In this document: in pieces, positions 7,664 to 31,040 of the stretch
Position numbering within the stretch: the stretch's first letter is position 1
Layout: every line of letters starts with the position of its first letter
Assembly (NCBI GenBank): GCA_016222905.1
Contig: JACRPZ010000051.1
Span: forward strand, 1 to 38,592
DNA length: 38,592 nt
DNA from: Nitrospirota bacterium
GTDB lineage: Bacteria; Nitrospirota; Thermodesulfovibrionia; UBA6902
Direction of reading: 5' to 3'
Translations under genes and position numbers: made by a program
The notes under the pieces: generated by a model
The model's database searches: none
What the model saw: only the letters and a program-made list of their open reading frames with translations
Told to the model about the DNA's origin: nothing

Positions 7664-8864
7664 TCAAAAATCAAGCGGGCTTTTGACGCCAAGAATATTC
7701 TTCGTTGCCACGTGCGTGTATATCATGGTAGTTTGAAGATTGGTATGTCCGAGGAGTTCTTGAATTGTCCTTATGTCATATCCGTTTTCAAGAAGATGTG
7801 TTGCAAAGCTATGCCTGAGTGTATGAACTGACGCCTGTTTGGTTATGCCAGCTTCTGCCGCCGCTGTTTTAAACGCCCTTTGAAGCGATGCTGGATGCAT
7901 ATGATGACGGCGGACAATACGTGTGCGCGGGTCAACAGCAAGCGATTTTGAAGGAAAAAGCCAGAACCACCCCCACTCCTTACCTGCATTCGGATATTTT
8001 CTCTCAAGTGCGTTTGGCAGATAAACGCCGTTAAGTTCTTCTTTTCTATCATTATCGTAAATACAGCGCACCTCAGTAATCTGCTGGATCAGATCATTCT
8101 TCAATGATTCAGGAAGAACAGTTCGTCGATCCTTATCACCCTTACCAGCCCTGACAATTACAATGCACTGTTCAATATCAACATCTTTTATTCTCATGTT
8201 CAGGCATTCATGAATCCGCAGGCCGCAGCCGTAAATAACCATCGCCATCAAGCGGTGAACTCCAGACATCTTATCAAGTATTGCATGCGTCTCTTTTGCA
8301 GTCAGGACAACGGGCAGTCGCCTCCTGTAAACCGCCCTGACCGCATTCAGTTCATTATCTCCGATTGTCTTATTAAGAACATTCCGATAAATGAAGATAA
8401 GCGCATTGAGGGCCTGATTCTGAGTAGAGGCAGAGACCTTGCGATCTACGGCAAGATAACTCAGATATTTCTGTATATCAGCAACTGCCATATCATCAGG
8501 TATTTTCTCCGCAATAAATCCGGCGAATGACCGCAGCCAGAGCAGATAGGTCTTTTCAGTGCTGTACGACATGTGCCTCAACCGCATAGCCTTTTGCGTA
8601 TTGGTCTCAACAATGCTCCATTCACCTTTATTTTGAGGAGACTTTTGTTTTGCGGATGTTTGCAAGCCTGATAGGTATATAGTCATAAAGCCTGAGCGCA
8701 GCCTCCGCCTGCTTAACCTGCCAGTCTTCATGGTTTTTCGCAAAATGCTTGAAGAAATCTTCTTTTTGTTCCTTAGGCAAAACTTCAGAAAGCGGTTGGT
8801 TTACAAAGTCATAACAGGCTGAAACCCACCTGGCATAATAAGGCGCATACTTATCATTCACCAC
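7664..8864 (-). pseudogene. intI: Integron integrase (IntI-type tyrosine recombinase), frameshifted
   Basis: Site-specific tyrosine recombinase of the integron type. The main part (7664-8743) carries the core-binding domain (STEKTYLLWLRSF), the catalytic Arg (GCGLRIHECL), the IntI-specific insertion LPNALERKYPNAGKEWGWFW that binds attC, and the HTLRH...LLGHTNLQTTMIYTHV box with the nucleophilic Tyr. The natural N-terminus (KYAPYYARWVSACYDFVNQP and WQVKQAEAALRLYDY) is encoded at 8628-8864 in another frame. The two frames meet near 8640 in an A-rich stretch; removing one A from the AAAA run would rejoin them. The start is uncertain: GTG at 8864 is the only candidate after an in-frame stop near 8913, so the 5' end may also be lost. 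Either the gene is broken or there is an assembly error. Confidence 0.85.
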
Positions 8865-9625: not shown

Positions 9626-11632
9626 ATCGGGTAGCCGGGGGAGTTTAACCCCCAGCCCCCACAACACCCATCATGCGGGTCCGCAATGGGCGTTTCGCAG
9701 AATCATCGTGCCTTAGCCGGATAGTGAATCCCAATCCACAGCGTGCGAATAGAAACAAGTCCCTGCTTTTCAAGGTGCGCATTGGACAACCCCATGTTCG
9801 TAGACAAGGTCTTCGCAAGATGCCAGTAGCCCTTCCTGCTCAGCCCCGTCAGAATCGCGTGGTATCTCGGCGCACCGAGCTTTATCAATTCACCGATGCG
9901 TTTTCTCGCCCTGTTCCATTGTTTCATGTAACACATGCGAATACGACGCCTAAGCCAATGATCGAATTCGACGACATCGTTATACTTCATAGCGATACCG
10001 AAGTAATTCATCCATCCCTGACTGTAGGTACTGATTTTCCAGTAACGGTAGTCCATCGAAACGCCCCAACTGCGACCGGTGAAACGCCGCAATTCGGACT
10101 TGAAACGCGCAAGGGATTTCTCAGAGACAGTAAGCCTTTTACGGGTGAAGGTAAAGCCGAGAAAAGAACTCTCCTCAGCCTTAACCACCCGGCTTTTGTC
10201 CCTGTTGACCTTCACCTTGAGTTTCTTTTCAAGGTAACGGCTGATACTGTCCATCACCCGATAAGCGGCACGTTCCGACTTTACGAGGATGGTAAGATCA
10301 TCTGCATAGCGTGCGAACCTATATCCCCTTCTCTCCAACTCCTTATCAAGATCATCCAGAAGGATGTTGCTCAGAAGGGGCGAAAGCGGCCCGCCCTGTG
10401 GCACTCCTTTGGATGTTTGGTTCAGCCTGCCGTCTACGACAACGCCAGCCCGAAGGTATTTCCCGATAAGCCGAAGGATGCCTCTGTCCCTGACTCTGCG
10501 GGACACCCGATTCATCAGAGTGTCGTGGTCAACCGTATCGAAGAACTTCTCAAGGTCAATGTCCACGGCATAGCGGTATCCTTTCTGAATGTCGTTCAAT
10601 ACCTTCTTGACCGCCTGATGCGCAGAGCGGTTAGGTCTGAAACCAAAGCTGGATTCGGAGAAATGGGGGTCAAAGACAGGACTGAGAATCTGACAGATCG
10701 CTTGCTGAATCAGACGATCCATGACAACGGGGATACCCAAAGGACGGGTTCCGCCGTTGTCTTTCGGTATCTCGACTCTCTTGACTGGTGAAGGTCTATA
10801 CTCTCCTTCCAGTAAAGATTGTTTAATTCCTTTCCAGTTCTCATGGGCATACTCTGGAAACTCCTCGATGGTGATACCATCAATACCGGGAGACCCTTTG
10901 TTTGCCCTGACTTGTTTCCATGCATTGAGTATGTTGCCTCTTTTGACAACGTACTCCACTGAGACAGGTTCGAGGGGTCGGTCTTCCATGACGCGCCTGT
11001 TTACAACTCCTCCGTTCGGATTCATGGTTGCATCAGAGCTCATGGAATCGCCTCACTCTTTTCTGCGTTCAGGCCTTCGTCCCTTAACGGAACTACTATG
11101 CCCTCTGCTGACTTCTGCGTGCTTACCCTGCATGTTTCCATAAAGGGCGCTATAGGATTGCTCATGAGTTGCTGTCTGTTTCGTGTCTCCCTTTGCAGGG
11201 ACTCATACCCGTCAACAGCAACGGTATATGCCGGGTCTTTGGTCAACCGGTCAGACCTCTCCGGTATTAAGCTCATGAACCTCCTATCGCGTGACGCGCA
11301 GATCTCCCCGGATAAGAACGTGAACTTTCCATGCACAACCGCCGCATTTACCCTGCCCTTTGAACCTGCGGGCTTCGTCATGTTGTGCTGACTCGCCCAA
11401 GGGCTAAGCCTTGTATGCGGTTTCTGTTCGTCGGCTCGCACTTTTGCGCTCCGGCTTCCTTCAGACCATTCCTCACGGAATCGCCCTTGCCTTCGGCTGT
11501 ACTTTTGGTAGTATTCATTACTATGAAAACCTCCGGGTTCTCGTACAGGGGACTTTGACCCCATAAGTTCACGCCCATGCCGGGCGTACACCAGTCAATC
11601 AACCCGCCTGATCGGGTTACTTCCGCGTACAC
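9626..11632 (-). mobile_element. Group II intron, class C (IIC)
   Basis: A complete-looking bacterial group IIC retroelement of about 2.0 kb on the minus strand. The 5' end is placed at GTGTACGCGGAAGTAACCCG (11632 downward), followed by the domain I start CGCCCGGCATGGGCGTGAAC. Downstream of the reverse transcriptase stop the minus strand has a domain V-like hairpin (CGCCCATTGCGGACCCGCATGATGGGTG, around 9665-9692, key pairs GCGGACCCGC) and a domain VI-like hairpin with GGGGG/CCCCC arms, ending CTACCCGAT at 9626. The 5' exon ends in a T-run (TTGTCTTTTTT), as is usual for class C insertion. Both ends are placed by eye, within a few bases. Confidence 0.85.
9703..11043 (-). CDS. ltrA: Group II intron reverse transcriptase/maturase (class C)
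   Basis: Intron-encoded protein that splices and retrotransposes the surrounding intron RNA. The 446-residue protein contains the RT blocks (GSPGIDGITIEEF, RPLGIPVVMDRLIQQAICQ, FGFRPNRSAHQAV, the block with VDIDLEKFFDTVDHD, GVPQGGPLSPLLSNILLDDL and the catalytic FARYADDLTILV), then the maturase domain (SFLGFTFTR; GIM domain WISTYSQGWMNYFG-like segment, residues about 355-400). No HNH endonuclease domain follows, which is typical of class C. The reading frame is intact, so the intron could be mobile. Several long frames on the opposite strand are shadows. Confidence 0.95.
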   Translation of the reverse strand: MSSDATMNPNGGVVNRRVMEDRPLEPVSVEYVVKRGNILNAWKQVRANKGSPGIDGITIEEFPEYAHENWKGIKQSLLEGEYRPSPVKRVEIPKDNGGTRPLGIPVVMDRLIQQAICQILSPVFDPHFSESSFGFRPNRSAHQAVKKVLNDIQKGYRYAVDIDLEKFFDTVDHDTLMNRVSRRVRDRGILRLIGKYLRAGVVVDGRLNQTSKGVPQGGPLSPLLSNILLDDLDKELERRGYRFARYADDLTILVKSERAAYRVMDSISRYLEKKLKVKVNRDKSRVVKAEESSFLGFTFTRKRLTVSEKSLARFKSELRRFTGRSWGVSMDYRYWKISTYSQGWMNYFGIAMKYNDVVEFDHWLRRRIRMCYMKQWNRARKRIGELIKLGAPRYHAILTGLSRKGYWHLAKTLSTNMGLSNAHLEKQGLVSIRTLWIGIHYPAKAR

Positions 11633-23098: not shown

Positions 23099-23127
23099 TT
23101 GACTTTTGACTATTTATAGTCTAAAAT
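23099..23127 (+). promoter_or_regulatory. sigma70-type promoter of the chemosensory operon with spacer palindrome
   Basis: TTGACT (23099-23104) and TAAAAT (23122-23127) are 17 bp apart, so transcription would start near 23134. The spacer holds a perfect inverted repeat GACTAT-TT-ATAGTC (23108-23121), a candidate operator. The resulting leader of about 240 bases contains the riboswitch and terminator. Confidence 0.6.
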
Positions 23128-23149
23128 TTATTCCATCTAAAATAAAACG

Positions 23150-23262
23150 TTACCGAAAAGAGCAAACTATCTGAAAGGATAGGGCGCAAAGCCACTTGCC
23201 CTAACGCCTTGCACAATATGGTGTGAGGAGACGTAATGGGTAGCAGGGTTACCGAAGTAGCA
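23150..23262 (+). ncRNA. GEMM-I riboswitch (c-di-GMP-I class; A at position 20, predicted GEMM-Ib/3',3'-cGAMP type)
   Basis: Cyclic dinucleotide aptamer in the leader of the chemosensory operon. The GEMM hallmarks are present in order: GAGCAAACTATC (23160-), hairpin CTATC-TGAAAG-GATAG with the GAAA tetraloop, GGGCGCAAAGCC (23182-23193), the tetraloop-receptor strands CCCTAA and TAATGG, a peripheral helix CCTTGCAC/GTGTGAGG, and GGGTAGC...GGGTTACCGA (23238-23255). Aligning by eye with the V. cholerae Vc2 aptamer, position 20 is A (23161), position 47 is A (23188) and position 92 is C (23252). G20 is found in c-di-GMP riboswitches and A20 in the GEMM-Ib riboswitches of Geobacter that prefer 3',3'-cGAMP. 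Class assignment is strong; ligand assignment is a prediction. Confidence 0.9.
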
Positions 23263-23270
23263 TATTAAAA

Positions 23271-23309
23271 TAGGCCCAAATCTTTTCGGTTTGGGTCTTT
23301 TGTTTTTAA
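23271..23309 (+). terminator. Intrinsic terminator, riboswitch expression platform
   Basis: AGGCCCAAA (23272-23280) pairs with TTTGGGTCT (23290-23298) around loop TCTTTTCGG, followed by TTTTGTTTTT. An outer stem CATATTAAAA (23261-23270) with TTTTAATATG (23304-23313) can extend it. It lies immediately after the aptamer and before the STAS gene, so ligand binding probably sets readthrough. Confidence 0.85.
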
Positions 23310-23719: not shown

Positions 23720-24090
23720 ATAAGACAATTATGACTGTAGATGATTCAGCCAGCATCAGGATGATGGTGCAGTTCACGCTCATTGATCTAGGCTATGATA
23801 TAGTCATGGCAGCTAACGGAAAAGAGGCTCTTGAAAAGCTCACTAATAAAAAGATGCCGAAAATAGATCTGCTGATAACGGATTTCAATATGCCTGTACT
23901 CAACGGCATCGGCCTGATAAAGAGCGTGAGAGAAATTCCGGATTACAAGTTTATGCCGATCATAATGCTCACCACCGAATTTCAGCCGGAAAAGAAATTT
24001 GAAGGAAGGCAGGCCGGTGCGACCAGTTGGCTTGTAAAACCTTTCAAACCTGAACAACTGGTTGCGGTTGTAAAGAGGATGATAGGATGA
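23716..24090 (+). CDS. cheY: Chemotaxis response regulator CheY
   Basis: A 124-residue stand-alone receiver domain. The acid pocket Asp9/Asp10 (TVDDSASIRMM), phospho-acceptor Asp56 (LLITDFNMPVLNG), switch Thr86 (IIMLTTEFQ) and Lys108 (WLVKPFKPEQL) are all present. It is phosphorylated by the adjacent CheA. The output may be a motor or another effector; no flagellar genes are in the window. ATGA overlaps couple it to the STAS gene before it and to cheA after it. Confidence 0.95.
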   Translation: MNKTIMTVDDSASIRMMVQFTLIDLGYDIVMAANGKEALEKLTNKKMPKIDLLITDFNMPVLNGIGLIKSVREIPDYKFMPIIMLTTEFQPEKKFEGRQAGATSWLVKPFKPEQLVAVVKRMIG

Positions 24091-26216
24091 ACGAGGATTA
24101 CGAAATAATTATCGAGATATTCAAAGAGGAGGCTTGTGAACTGCTCTCTGAAGCAGAAAATTCACTCCTCGAACTTGAAAAAGCCCCCGGCAATAAGGAG
24201 GCTATTTCTGCTATCTTCAGGGCATTTCATTCCATCAAGGGTGGAGGCGGGATGTTCGGTTTTAACAATATAACGAGCTTTACTCATGAGATAGAAACGG
24301 TCTATGAAGACATCAGAAACGGGAAGATCATACCTGATAAAGAACTTATAGATATCTCCCTTGCCTCATGCGATGTGATACGGGAGATGATCAAAGCCCC
24401 GCATGCAGAACCTGACGAAAATGCCCGGGACATACTTGCCTCTCTCAGAAAATATCTCTCGCAGGAAAAGGTTGTCACTAAGACGCCAGCCGAATCCCCG
24501 AAAAAAGCCGTTACAACGGAACAGGAATCCGCAAGGATGGTTACTTACAGGATACGCTTCAGGCCTTTTCCGGGCATCTTTGCAACCGGCACAAACCCTG
24601 TTTTGCTGCTGAATGAGCTGCGCAATCTCGGAGAGTGCTGTATGATAGCCCATACTGATGAAATCCCTGAACTGGATGAAATTGATGCTGAGACATGCTA
24701 TACCGCCTGGGATGTCATTCTCACAACCAGCCGCGGCATTGACGCCATAAAAGATGTATTCATTTTCGTGGAAAGTGAATCCGAACTCGCAATAGAAATT
24801 ATAGATGATAGCGAAAACCCGGCAGAGAATTCCGATTACAAGAAACTCGGAGAGATCCTTATCGAAAAGAGGGACATAACTCAGGAGGACCTCGAGAGTG
24901 TATTAGGTGAAAGGAGGCTCATCGGAGAGGTGCTTATAGACAAGGGGCTTGTTGAGCCCGCATGTGTTCAGTCCGCGCTTAACGAGCAGGAACATGTGCG
25001 TCAGATAAGGGAGAACAGGATCCGGGCTGATGTTATTTCGAATATCAAGGTGCCTTCCGACAAACTCGATAAACTTGTAAATCTCGTTGGCGAACTTGTC
25101 ACTGTACAGGCACGTCTCAGCCAGACAGCAGCATACAGGGAGGACACTGAACTCAGTTCTATAGCGGAAGAAGTAGAGCGGTTGGCAGCCGAACTCAGGG
25201 ACAACACCATGAACATCCGCCTGCTGCCTATAGGGACTACCTTCAGTAAATTCAAACGTCTTGTAAGAGACCTTTCAAAGGAACTCGGCAAGGAAGTTGA
25301 GATGACAACTGATGGCGCTGATACTGAACTGGACAAAACAGTCATTGAGAGACTGAGCGATCCCCTGCTCCACCTTATAAGGAACTGCATAGACCATGGC
25401 ATTGAACTGCCTGAGGTGCGGGAGTCATCAGGCAAGCAGAGGAAGGGCACTATTAACTTATTCGCAAGGCATTCCGGGCCCAATGTCCTTATACAGGTGA
25501 GCGATGACGGAGAAGGCCTTGATAAAGATGCGATCCTGGCAAAGGCATCAGAAAGAGGATCGATAACAGCAGGCCAGGAGCTTTCAGATGATGAGATTTA
25601 TTCTTTAATATTTTCAGCAGGTTTTTCTACGACTTCAAATGCTACAAAAATATCGGGGCGCGGTGTAGGGCTCGATGTGGTTAAGAGAGCCGTGGATTTC
25701 CTCAGAGGCTCAATAACAATCGAAAGCAGGAGGGGGGCAGGAACAACGATCACTCTTGTACTGCCCCTGACCCTGGCCATTATAGAAGGGCTTCTTGTAA
25801 CTATCGGGGAGGAATACTTTGTACTGCCGCTTTCATCTGTAGAAGAGTGCGTAGAACTGATTCAAAAAGAGGTATCTGAGACCCGCGGAAGGCATATCCT
25901 GAACGTAAGGGGGAAAGCAGTACCATACATCAGGCTGCGGGAGCAATTTTCGATCAGCGGAATACCCCCCGCCATCGAACAGATAGTGATTGTGAAACAC
26001 GGCGGCGATCAGGTCGGCTTAGTAGTGGACAATGTGATCGGAGGACACCAGACAGTGATAAAGAACCTTGGTTGGATATACAGGAGTGCTGAGGGAATAT
26101 CAGGTGCGACTATTCTCGGAGACGGGTCGGTCGCTCTCATATTGGACATCCCAAAACTCTTGATGTGCGCATTGAACGAAGAAACAGTGTCACTGAATTT
26201 CAAGTACAACATTTAA
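24087..26216 (+). CDS. cheA: Chemotaxis histidine kinase CheA
   Basis: A 709-residue CheA. Domains in order: Hpt with phospho-acceptor His48 (AIFRAFHSIKGGGGMFGF), a linker, a P2-like domain (about 150-250), two helical repeats of the GspE N-terminal kind (LGEILIEKRDITQEDLESVL and IGEVLIDKGLVEPACVQSAL, about 256-305), the dimerisation helix pair (KLDKLVNLVGELVTVQARL), the HATPase_c domain with N box RNCIDHGIE, G boxes SDDGEGLD and SGRGVGLDVV, and a C-terminal CheW-like domain (about 565-700). All catalytic parts are intact. The GspE-N-like insert is not part of classical CheA. Confidence 0.96.
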   Translation: MNEDYEIIIEIFKEEACELLSEAENSLLELEKAPGNKEAISAIFRAFHSIKGGGGMFGFNNITSFTHEIETVYEDIRNGKIIPDKELIDISLASCDVIREMIKAPHAEPDENARDILASLRKYLSQEKVVTKTPAESPKKAVTTEQESARMVTYRIRFRPFPGIFATGTNPVLLLNELRNLGECCMIAHTDEIPELDEIDAETCYTAWDVILTTSRGIDAIKDVFIFVESESELAIEIIDDSENPAENSDYKKLGEILIEKRDITQEDLESVLGERRLIGEVLIDKGLVEPACVQSALNEQEHVRQIRENRIRADVISNIKVPSDKLDKLVNLVGELVTVQARLSQTAAYREDTELSSIAEEVERLAAELRDNTMNIRLLPIGTTFSKFKRLVRDLSKELGKEVEMTTDGADTELDKTVIERLSDPLLHLIRNCIDHGIELPEVRESSGKQRKGTINLFARHSGPNVLIQVSDDGEGLDKDAILAKASERGSITAGQELSDDEIYSLIFSAGFSTTSNATKISGRGVGLDVVKRAVDFLRGSITIESRRGAGTTITLVLPLTLAIIEGLLVTIGEEYFVLPLSSVEECVELIQKEVSETRGRHILNVRGKAVPYIRLREQFSISGIPPAIEQIVIVKHGGDQVGLVVDNVIGGHQTVIKNLGWIYRSAEGISGATILGDGSVALILDIPKLLMCALNEETVSLNFKYNI

Positions 26217-26242: not shown

Positions 26243-27934
26243 ATGTCTTTTCGAAATATGAAAATCGGAATAAAAATGGGGATTGGTTTTTTAGGTGTGG
26301 TCATCGTCTTTATCGTCGCCGCAGTCATAACGAGCTTTACGCTCTCTGTAGTAGAACAAAATGCAGGACACGTTAAAAATGAAAGTCTGCCCTTCGTTAT
26401 TCTCGCAGGAAGTATGGCAAGGAATATAGTACAGGTTCAGCAGTATCTGACCGATGTCTCTGCAAGCCACAACACTGACGGTTATGGGGAGGCGGAAAAA
26501 CAGGCGAACGAGTTCCGCGATGGCGTTGCACAATTCAAGAAAATGTTCAGGGATGAAAACGATTCAGAAGCGCTGAATGAGATAGAGACTATCGAAAATT
26601 ATTTTGACAAATTTTATGAAACCGGCAAGCAGATGGCGAACGTTTACGTAAACCAAGGGATGGAGGCCGGAAATAAAATTATGGAGGATTTTGACAAGGC
26701 TTCCCTGAATTTAACTGAATCCATCCTCAAATTCGAGAATAGTCAAAATGACGAGGCTGAACAAATGACTAAGGAGATGACCAGTTCAGTCGCAAAAACC
26801 AAACAGACGCTGATCATTTTCGGCATAGTGGCGGTTATCATCTCCGTGCTCCTGTCGTTCTTTATCACTCGCGGCATCACTCAGCCCCTTAGCGAAGGCC
26901 TGCTCGTGGCAAACAGTCTGGCTGCGGGAGATTTAACGATGGATGTCAAAGTGAGAAGTTCGGACGAGACAGGTCAGCTGCTTCTTGCCATGAAAAACAT
27001 GATTGAAAAACTAAAAGATATTGTGGTGGATGTAAAGTCAGCCTCTGACAATGTGGCATCCGGGAGCCAGCAGATGAGCTCCAGTTCAGAGGAGATGTCA
27101 CAGGGCGCTTCAGAGCAGGCGAGTTCTGTGGAAGAGGTCTCTTCTTCCATGGAAGAGATGGTGTCGAACGTACGGCAGAACGCTGATAATGCACTTCAGA
27201 CAGAGAAGATCGCTCTGAAATCTGCCAATGACGCAAGAGAAAGCGGTAAGGCAGTTGCCGATACTGTTATAGCAATGAAAGACATTGCCGGCAAGATAAC
27301 TATTATTGAAGAGATAGCGAGACAGACGAACCTCCTTGCCTTGAACGCAGCTATTGAGGCAGCACGAGCAGGCGAACACGGCAGAGGTTTTGCGGTCGTT
27401 GCATCAGAGGTGAGAAAACTTGCGGAGAGGAGCCAGGCAGCGGCGGCAGAGATAAGCAAACTCTCATCATCAAGCGTGGAGGTGGCGGAGATGGCAGGCC
27501 AAATGCTTGCCAAACTCGTGCCTGATATCCAGAAGACAGCAGAACTCGTGCAGGAGATAAACAGCGCAAGCGGAGAGCAGAACAGCGGCGCTGAGCAGAT
27601 CAACAAGGCAGTCCAGCAGCTTGACCAGGTTGTGCAGCAGAATGCGACCGTGGCCGAAGAGATGTCTTCTACTGCCGAGGAGCTTGCGGCCCAGGCCGAA
27701 AACCTACAAAACGCCGTAGAATTTTTCAAGGTAGGCGGCTCAGACAGAAGAAGGGTCACAACAGTGGAGCATAGGGCCCCTGTATTTGAACACAAGACAA
27801 AACTTGCGCATATTCCCCATCAGGGAATAAAACAGACAAAGGTCGCGCTTGCAAAGCCGGCAGCCCAAAAGGGTTTTACGCTCGACATGGGTGGAGCAAA
27901 GGACACTGAAGACAACGAATTCGAGAAATTTTAA
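26243..27934 (+). CDS. Methyl-accepting chemotaxis protein
   Basis: A 563-residue membrane receptor. Transmembrane segments lie at about 10-32 and 188-208, with a helical periplasmic sensor of about 155 residues between them (four-helix-bundle type, Asn/Glu/Gln-rich). A HAMP domain follows (209-262), then the signalling coiled coil. The conserved hairpin tip spans about 357-397 ([20 protein letters not shown] then [17 protein letters not shown]). The C-terminal tail ends NEFEKF. Ligand unknown. It lies between cheA and cheW, with an AAGGAGG ribosome site, and is presumably the dedicated receptor of this array. Confidence 0.96.
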
Positions 27935-27946
27935 GGGGGTAATGAG

Positions 27947-28444
27947 ATGAACGCAACAGGAATTACAGAGACGACCCAGTATCTCACGTTCAGGCTTGGG
28001 GACGAGGTCTTTGCCCTCGATATTTCGAAGGTGAGAGAGGTACTGGATTTCACGTCTATAACCAAGGTGCCTCGCACGCCGGAGTTCATGAGGGGCGTTA
28101 TAAACCTCAGAGGCAATGTTGTGCCTGTAGTGGATATGAGGCTGAAATTCGGGATGACTAAGACCGAAAACACAGTAAACACCTGTATCATCATCGTGGA
28201 GATATACCTGGACGGCGAAACGACCATACTCGGAGCTCTGTCGGATTCAGTGCAGGAGGTGATAGACCTCGAACCCGGACAGATAGAGCCTGCCCCGAAG
28301 ATAGGTACGAGGCTGAGGACCGAGTTCATCAAAGGCATGGGAAAGCGGGATGGACAGTTCATCATCATCCTGGATATTGACAAGGTCTTTTCCGCGGATG
28401 AACTCTCTATTGTCAAGGATACCGGTGAGCAGGCATCTGCATAA
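27947..28444 (+). CDS. cheW: Chemotaxis adaptor protein CheW
   Basis: A 165-residue CheW that couples the receptor to CheA. The family pattern is clear: YLTFRLGDEVFALDISKVREVL at the start, TKVPRTPEFMRGVINLRGNVVPVVDMRLKF in the middle, and GALSDSVQEVIDL and FIKGMGKRDGQFIIILDIDKVF at the end. It starts 12 bases after the MCP stop behind a GGGGG-type ribosome site. A terminator-like hairpin follows it. Confidence 0.96.
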   Translation: MNATGITETTQYLTFRLGDEVFALDISKVREVLDFTSITKVPRTPEFMRGVINLRGNVVPVVDMRLKFGMTKTENTVNTCIIIVEIYLDGETTILGALSDSVQEVIDLEPGQIEPAPKIGTRLRTEFIKGMGKRDGQFIIILDIDKVFSADELSIVKDTGEQASA

Positions 28445-28555: not shown

Positions 28556-29443
28556 ATGCATATTAATACCGACATTTCTGAAAATAAAGCCTACAATTCC
28601 TACAGTAAGATCATGACCGCCAAGCTTTCCGACAGGAATTTCACGCAGTTGAGTCAGTTTATCCATTCGGAGTGCGGCATCAAGATGCCGGTCCCCAAGA
28701 GAATTATGCTCGAGGCACGGCTGAAAAAGAGGCTCAGGGCGCTCGGCCTTGAATCCTATGAAGAGTACTGTGATTTTCTCTTTAGTCCGGAAGGCCTGGA
28801 AAAGGAGCGTGTCTTCATGATCAATGTGGTGACAACGAACAAGACTGATTTTTTCCGGGAACCGAGGCACTTCGAATACCTTGTGCAGAACGCGCTCCCC
28901 GAACTTATGCGCCTTTACGGAACCGGCATGAGGAAGCTCTGGTCAGCCGGATGTTCAACAGGAGAAGAGCCTTATACGCTGGCCATGGTGCTGAGCGAAT
29001 TTGCAGCCAGAACCCCTGGATTCGATTTCACTATTCTTGCTACTGATATTTCTACGACAGTATTAGAAAAGGCTGTCCGGGGGATATATAAAGAAGAAAG
29101 GATTGAGACCGTCCCTTTAGAGTTAAAGCGAAAATACCTGATGAAGAGCAAAGACAAGGGGAAAAAACTGGTAAGGGTTACTCCTGAGGTGAGGTCGCTT
29201 GTTAAATTTCGGAGATTGAACTTTATAGATCATGACTTCGGTATGAGAGAACTACAGGATGTTATTTTCTGCAGAAACGTCATCATATATTTTGATCGGT
29301 TGACACAGGAAAAAGTTTTAAAGAGACTCTGTAAACACCTCATTCCGGGCGGGTATCTTTTTATGGGACATTCCGAGACCCTGAGCAGTCTTGCTCTCCC
29401 TCTTGTCTCAGCAGGACCCATGGTCTATCGGAAGCCGCTATGA
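28556..29443 (+). CDS. cheR: Chemotaxis protein methyltransferase CheR
   Basis: A 295-residue S-adenosylmethionine-dependent methyltransferase that methylates receptor glutamates. The N-terminal helical domain (NFTQLSQFIHSECGIKMPV, ARLKKRLRALGL) precedes the catalytic domain with TTNKTDFFREPRHF, the SAM loop SAGCSTGEEPYTLA (130-143), and IFCRNVIIYFDR (about 238-249). The first ATG is at 28556, without a clear ribosome site; the ATG at 28613 (MTAKLSDRNF) is a possible alternative. The stop overlaps cheD (ATGA). Confidence 0.94.
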   Translation: MHINTDISENKAYNSYSKIMTAKLSDRNFTQLSQFIHSECGIKMPVPKRIMLEARLKKRLRALGLESYEEYCDFLFSPEGLEKERVFMINVVTTNKTDFFREPRHFEYLVQNALPELMRLYGTGMRKLWSAGCSTGEEPYTLAMVLSEFAARTPGFDFTILATDISTTVLEKAVRGIYKEERIETVPLELKRKYLMKSKDKGKKLVRVTPEVRSLVKFRRLNFIDHDFGMRELQDVIFCRNVIIYFDRLTQEKVLKRLCKHLIPGGYLFMGHSETLSSLALPLVSAGPMVYRKPL

Positions 29444-29982
29444 CAAGATTGCACGATTCTGATATCAAGAAAATATTTCTTAAGCCCGGTGAGATCTATA
29501 TAGGGGAGAGACCTGCCAAGGTGGTCACAGTCCTTGGTTCCTGTGTTTCAGTCACCATCTTCAGCAAGAGGCTGCGTATCGGCGCCATATGCCATGGAGC
29601 ATTGCCGCATTGCAGGAAAATGAGGAGATGCCATGATCTGTGCGACGATACCTTTAAGTATGTGGATTGTTCATTGCATTATATGCTCGGAAGAATGAGG
29701 AGTTTAGGATGCGCGGACAGCGAAATAGAGATCAAGCTCTTCGGAGGCGCAGACACATTGTCATCAAAGAAGGAAAATACCATCGGGAGCATGAATGTAA
29801 AGATGGCGCTGGATATAATCAGGCAGGAGAATCTTAGGGTAATAGCCGCTGATGTGGGAGACTCCTTTGGCCGGAAGATATTTTTCATGACCCATACCGG
29901 CGATGTATATCTGAAGAGGCTGATCAATGCCGCAGCAATTAGTCAGTCGCCGGGAGTGACCTTCAAGATGAGGGGGAAATGA
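29440..29982 (+). CDS. cheD: Chemoreceptor glutamine deamidase CheD
   Basis: A 180-residue CheD that deamidates receptor glutamines. The catalytic Cys35 ([12 protein letters not shown]) and His52 ([11 protein letters not shown]) are present, as are [10 protein letters not shown] and [20 protein letters not shown]. The ATG overlaps the cheR stop, and its own stop overlaps cheB by ATGA. No cheC or cheX lies in the window. Confidence 0.93.
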
Positions 29983-31040
29983 GGGAAAAGATCAAGGTCC
30001 TTATTGTGGATGACTCTTCCGTTGTCCGCCAGACGCTTAAGGATGTCCTTTCATCAGACCCCATGATTGAGGTTATGGGAACAGCACCCGACCCCTTTAT
30101 AGCGGCTGAAAAGATACGCCATGAAGTGCCTGACGTAATTCTGCTTGATATCGAGATGCCCCGGATGGACGGGGTCACATTTCTGCATAAGATAATGAGC
30201 CAGCACCCTATCCCCGTTGTGATATGTTCAAGCCTGACAGAGTCCGGAGCTGAAACTACCATGAAGGCGCTGGAATACGGTGCAATCGAGATCATACTGA
30301 AATCCAGGCTGGGCACAAAACAGTTTCTCGAAGAATCAAGAGTGCGCATCTGCGATGCTGTCAAGGCAGCTTCCGTGGCTAAAATAAGGCCTGTTGCGTC
30401 CAAGCCGCTTAAGATAAGCCCGAAACTCACCGCTGACGCGGTCATAGCGCCTTCAACAAAGGCCATGATACAGACCACAGAGAAGGTCGTTGTGGTCGGT
30501 GCTTCAACAGGCGGCACCGAGGCACTGCGGACACTGCTTGAGGATATGCCTCTCGATGCTCCCGGAATCGTAATAGTGCAGCATATGCCGGAGAATTTTA
30601 CCACTGCTTTTGCAAAGCGCCTTGACGGCACTTGCAGAATAACCGTTAAAGAGGCTGAAGATAATGACACTGTTATAAGAGGAAGAGCTCTAATTGCTCC
30701 CGGTAACCGCCACACATTGCTCAAGCGGAGCGGAGCGCGATACTATGTTGAAATAAAAGACGGCCCCCTGGTCTCCCGTCACCGGCCTTCGGTAGATGTG
30801 CTCTTCCGTTCTGCTACGAGATACGCGGGGAAGAATGCTGTTGGGGTTATTATGACAGGCATGGGCGATGATGGCGCTAAAGGGATGTTAGAGATGAAAA
30901 ATGCAGGCGCGTATACGATCGCCCAGGATGAAGCCACTTCCGTTGTATTTGGAATGCCCAATGAGGCGATCAAACTCGGCGGGGTCAATAAGGTGCTTCC
31001 GCTTGAAAGTATTGCCCATGAGGTTATACGGAAGACTTAA
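29979..31040 (+). CDS. cheB: Chemotaxis methylesterase/glutaminase CheB
   Basis: A 353-residue CheB: receiver domain with Asp11/Asp12 ([12 protein letters not shown]) and phospho-acceptor Asp57 ([14 protein letters not shown]), a linker (about 120-165), and the methylesterase domain with catalytic Ser176 ([12 protein letters not shown]), His202 ([10 protein letters not shown]) and Asp298 ([12 protein letters not shown]). All residues are intact. It closes the operon; no strong terminator is evident directly after it. Confidence 0.96.

Follow-up and report, generated by a model that had tools for sequence, protein, structure and literature searches.

How is the production of a whole chemosensory array controlled in a bacterium that apparently lacks a flagellum? 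The question is raised by a stretch of 38,592 nucleotides (hereafter, the window) that makes up the whole of contig C26 in the draft genome of an uncultured Nitrospirota bacterium (2.84 Mb in 90 contigs; estimated as 100% complete and 1.5% contaminated). The original prediction placed a GEMM-I riboswitch in front of an entire chemosensory operon and proposed that a cGAMP-type signal sets the operon's expression. If true, cyclic-dinucleotide signalling would be tied directly, at the RNA level, to the production of an entire chemosensory array. Elsewhere, the window also carries a group II intron with a reverse transcriptase/maturase ORF (9703–11591, minus strand), with a phage-type integrase gene nearby (7664–8743).

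The aptamer and its ligand-contact base

When the whole window was scanned with Rfam 15, a full-length match (model positions 1–87) to the c-di-GMP-I family, RF01051, was found on the plus strand at 23151–23256, with a score of 57 bits against a gathering cut-off of 35 and an E-value of 9.9e-9. A separate covariance model, built from 17 sequences with the window aptamer among them, gave it 69.8 bits, while the runner-up match in the window reached 10.8. The complete GEMM-I aptamer claimed for 23150–23262 was therefore confirmed, with that slightly longer interval also taking in P1. The P1 stem was assigned by eye to GUUAC (23149–23153) and GUAGC (23257–23261), whose pairing was forced during folding. 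P2, with its GAAA loop at 23173–23176, lies at 23162–23188 in the Rfam alignment, and P3 (23190–23250) is enlarged into a long hairpin according to both the alignment and the predicted fold. Within P3, the segments CCUAA (23200–23204) and UAAUGG (23234–23239) resemble, by eye, a GAAA-tetraloop receptor.

Membership in RF01051 is a matter of sequence and structure above a curated score, which this RNA exceeds. As is typical of GEMM-I leaders, which lie 5′ of environmental, membrane or motility genes and contain an expression platform, it precedes a che operon and carries a terminator at 23272–23308. Judging from its sequence, then, every testable feature places the RNA in RF01051. The riboswitch class is a known one, and what is new is one more member, with an unusual target and logic.

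The original prediction also assigned A, rather than the consensus G, to the ligand-contact base at position 20 in Vc2 numbering. The Rfam alignment is gap-free ahead of P2, and the base just before the G-C of P2 is A (23161, model position 11). Model positions 12–13 (G and C) are paired with 36–37, and position 38 is the A that follows P2 (23188), which we take to be A47 in Vc2 numbering; model position 11 thus corresponds to Vc2 position 20. The covariance alignment therefore agrees with the earlier hand alignment, and the A at position 20 by which GEMM-Ib RNAs are recognized occurs at 23161. Position 20 was read out in 91 aptamers, those of this genome included; it is G in 83 of them and A in the other 8.

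Only one further GEMM-I was found in the genome (L001), a G20-type aptamer ahead of a gene for an exported CxxCH-motif protein. In that locus (1501–1578), a 7-nt complement to the pocket strand occurs near the terminator and is not significant (0.13). On a single contig of another genome (G010:C123), the GEMM-I aptamers L031 and L166 lie about 9.5 kb apart with related proteins downstream; one is of the G20 type and the other of the A20 type.

Which cyclic dinucleotide?

The cGAMP aptamers of Geobacter have A at position 20, and the pocket in the window, A20-G21-C22, resembles that of the Vc2 G20A mutant. That mutant binds cGAMP (PMC6274999, PMC7288161), whereas the contacts listed for the Geobacter cGAMP aptamer read A14, C15 (PMC7288161). 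The base at position 20, however, has been described as a selectivity factor and not a hard filter (PMC9262584).

A cGAMP signal would also call for a source. Fourteen GGDEF matches were found in the genome, in which the Hypr position is occupied by Asp (12), by Ala (1) or is degenerate (1). A Ser/Thr, or Hypr, GGDEF was sought with an HMM, a motif, a relative's protein and a loosened DNA pattern, and none of the 14 qualified, an absence that is not final in a 90-contig draft. Four matches to the loosened pattern were rejected, since none lay at any GGDEF match, and the closest match in the genome to the relative's Hypr domain was 46% identical and carried Asp. Likewise, no SMODS cyclase was found in the genome, a DncV-like source having been sought through PF18144 only. 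A genome-encoded cGAMP source, which supports a GEMM-Ib assignment without strictly defining it, was thus not recognized here, in a draft that could miss a Hypr gene. Since this expected source was not found and cGAMP binding is only predicted, the riboswitch was not filed as GEMM-Ib. The lack of a Hypr GGDEF, coupled with equal or better binding of c-di-GMP, was one of the grounds that the original prediction had named against cGAMP, and the genomic half of that pair is what the search returned.

It is nonetheless possible that the RNA is a cGAMP-selective switch of the GEMM-Ib type, with cGAMP from an atypical cyclase setting che expression through the same OFF platform described below. The A20 pocket, with the base found in cGAMP aptamers, argues for this. 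In addition, Ser-type (GacA-like) GGDEF proteins are encoded by about 26 of the 47 genomes compared from the order, though not by this one, which makes cGAMP signalling plausible in the lineage. For the family member in genome G039, for example, the best solved match is GmGacA of G. metallireducens (6d9m), and the Ser residues of the two proteins align. Against cGAMP selectivity stand the lack of a recognized Ser/Thr GGDEF or SMODS cyclase in the genome and the fact that A20 does not track Hypr: by our count, Hypr-type proteins occur in 10–11 of 19 G20-only genomes vs 4 of 6 A20 genomes of the order. The idea that A20 genomes are Hypr genomes was consequently dropped.

The GGDEF protein whose Hypr residue is Ala (L044; G000:C45:211-669) departs from both canonical enzymes, which have Asp, and Hypr enzymes, which have Ser/Thr. 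Its closest relatives in the compared set are L114 and L116, both with Ser and both 56% identical to it, which lends some weight to an atypical cyclase. The fuller scenario, in which a cGAMP-sensing OFF riboswitch shuts down the whole array of a flagellum-less Nitrospirota in response to cGAMP made by the non-canonical L044, is speculative and rather unlikely.

The ligand may be c-di-GMP, 3′,3′-cGAMP or both. The presence of ordinary diguanylate cyclases and the lack of a recognized cGAMP synthase tip the balance slightly towards c-di-GMP, perhaps bound with relaxed specificity. Of the proposed control by a cGAMP-type signal, then, the A20 pocket stands, while cGAMP as the signal is not established. 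Since A20 occurs here although no cGAMP synthase was recognized in the genome, the switch also offers a natural test of the notion that A20 alone means cGAMP.

The expression platform

A possible σ70 promoter, TTGACT-17-TAAAAT, occurs upstream of the aptamer at 23099–23127 and is the only one found on the plus strand between 22600 and 23500; the call is weak, since the number of promoter-like matches (2) did not exceed the chance expectation (2.2). Downstream of the aptamer lies a strong intrinsic terminator (23272–23308), consisting of an 11-bp stem (23272–23298) and a U-rich tail, with the stem-loop region having a folding energy of −15.2 kcal/mol and a z-score of −4.2. The pocket strand of the aptamer, ACCGAAAAGA (23152–23161), ends in A20 and is perfectly complementary, over 10 nt, to the apex of the terminator, UCUUUUCGGU (23281–23290). 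Complementarity of this length was reached by only 0.0008 of mononucleotide shuffles, and the two segments would constitute the 5′ and 3′ strands of an antiterminator.

Folding predictions are consistent with such a role. For an RNA ending at 23290, the minimum-energy fold includes the antiterminator helix, at −46.9 kcal/mol vs −33.6 kcal/mol with the aptamer pairs forced. With the terminator complete, its own predicted fold has a slight edge over that of the antiterminator (−50.2 vs −48.0 kcal/mol), so that antitermination must be kinetic.

The same platform layout, with other bases, was found in L148, L175, L181, L143, L154 and L178, all six of them G20 riboswitches from the order. Because they were chosen for showing complementarity, they serve as illustrations of the design and not as independent tests of it. 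Position 20 pairs with the terminator apex as G-C in five of the six and as G-U in the other; in the window, the pair is A-U. Downstream of three of these relatives (L148, L143 and L154) are genes for one HD-domain response regulator and two GGDEF-EAL proteins, which are likely to act in c-di-GMP turnover. Taken together, the 10-nt complement, the nascent fold and the six relatives predict an antiterminator that is drawn from aptamer sequence and excludes the terminator, in the manner of Cd1.

An ON switch of the Geobacter pilM kind, in which ligand would prevent the terminator and turn on the che operon, has precedents: pilM of G. metallireducens is the ON member of a compared pair (PMC9262584). 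An ON layout, with the aptamer's 3′ strand doubling as the 5′ arm of the terminator, was also recognized by eye in the A20 riboswitches L017 and L163 of a same-class genome and L174 of the order. In the window, however, the terminator that an ON platform would need to overlap the aptamer 3′ strand begins at 23272, clear of that strand's end at 23261, and the complementarity is with the 5′ pocket strand instead. An ON direction is for these reasons unlikely. The platform most likely predicts an OFF switch, opposite in direction to Geobacter pilM and to the same-class A20 switches.

The operon and its orthologous loci

The forecast of a whole che operon downstream was borne out by Pfam, which identifies eight genes on the same strand 3′ of the riboswitch, mostly overlapping or closely spaced. 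These encode a STAS-domain protein (STAS_2, PF13466; 23372–23719), CheY (PF00072; 23716–24090), CheA (24087–26216), a methyl-accepting chemotaxis protein with MCPsignal, HAMP and 4HB_MCP_1 domains (MCP; 26243–27934), CheW (27947–28444), CheR (28556–29443), CheD (29440–29982) and CheB (29979–31040).

Residues 253–301 of the CheA form a degenerate MshEN-like insert that matches an NCBIfam c-di-GMP-binding, MshE-related domain with 34.5 bits, below the cut-off of 38. MshEN in CheA has been mentioned previously (PMC5013675). Motif I of the insert reads KLGEILIEKRDI, with Lys in place of Arg and Arg in place of Gly, which makes c-di-GMP binding by the insert doubtful.

Similar che clusters occur in other Nitrospirota, in Geobacter and in other Deltaproteobacteria, with CheA proteins 53–60% identical in named records. 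The separate covariance model was run on 98 loci with orthologous CheA genes (18 of them in the order and a further 80 in named genomes; 1.16 Mb in all, with some identical places and some loci short upstream), and a credible GEMM-I was found in none. Seven weak matches appeared at E-values up to 10, the best being 0.094. The sole match just upstream of a che cluster (L212, 4618–4728) was rejected as apparent coding DNA that Rfam missed. Within this sample, the pairing of riboswitch and che operon was therefore peculiar to this genome. A search of mostly open-access literature likewise turned up no description of a che operon controlled in this way, so that novelty of the target is unproven.

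Absence from the orthologous loci could mean a recent, non-essential insertion, yet it is very improbable that the aptamer has decayed or lost its activity and persists merely as the leader of a constitutive terminator-attenuator, given the intact conserved core and pairings, the 57-bit score and an apex complement that fits A20 and not G20.

A proposed transcriptional OFF switch

The best explanation, to which a probability of about 0.6 may be given, is a transcriptional GEMM-I OFF switch on one chemosensory operon, with a guanine-containing cyclic dinucleotide as the ligand and a probably non-flagellar output. Without ligand, the pocket strand (23152–23161) would pair with the nascent terminator apex (23281–23290), and this pairing would block the terminator and allow STAS-cheY-cheA-mcp-cheW-cheR-cheD-cheB to be transcribed. 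A guanine-containing cyclic dinucleotide in the pocket would instead hold the pocket strand in P1 and the ligand site, leaving the terminator (23272–23308) free to form and turn off the operon.

As for what the array controls, FlhA is absent from the genome, whereas it has four PilB/GspE-like and three PilT-like matches to pilus-type ATPases, a distinction drawn solely from score and length. Because of this gene content, type IV pili or some other non-flagellar output are the more probable target of the array. The word chemotaxis in the original prediction should accordingly be qualified, since flagella are probably not what the array steers. The genome encodes five MCPs in total, and a second che cluster, on contig C36, has no GEMM-I.

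Comparison with known riboswitches

The window RNA shares with Vc2 and the rest of RF01051 the P1-P2-P3 architecture, the conserved core, the GAAA loop and a score far above the gathering cut-off. It differs in having A rather than G at position 20, a long P3 and a che operon as its target. A counterpart of the pocket is the cGAMP-binding Vc2 G20A mutant (PDB 4YB1), which likewise sets A20 in a G21-C22 background; the mutant is engineered, whereas the window RNA is natural and has another P3 and platform.

In its predicted logic, the window RNA resembles Cd1 of Clostridioides difficile, a c-di-GMP OFF switch in which the antiterminator state comes at the cost of ligand-binding ability (PMC9262584). 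Both are class-I aptamers ahead of motility-related operons in which ligand promotes termination, as predicted in the window's case. Cd1, however, has G at the position-20 equivalent and lies upstream of flagellar genes, whereas the window has a che array.

Finally, GEMM-Ib cGAMP riboswitches are known from Geobacter, with 13 in G. sulfurreducens (PMC8835794) and another at pilM of G. metallireducens (PMC9262584). Like these, the window RNA has A20 in the pocket and a leader with a transcription terminator. Unlike them, its A20 is followed by G-C, compared with the published contacts A14 and C15 of 4YAZ, and its genome has no recognized Hypr GGDEF. Its platform would also combine A20 with an OFF layout, in contrast to the ON layout of Geobacter pilM.
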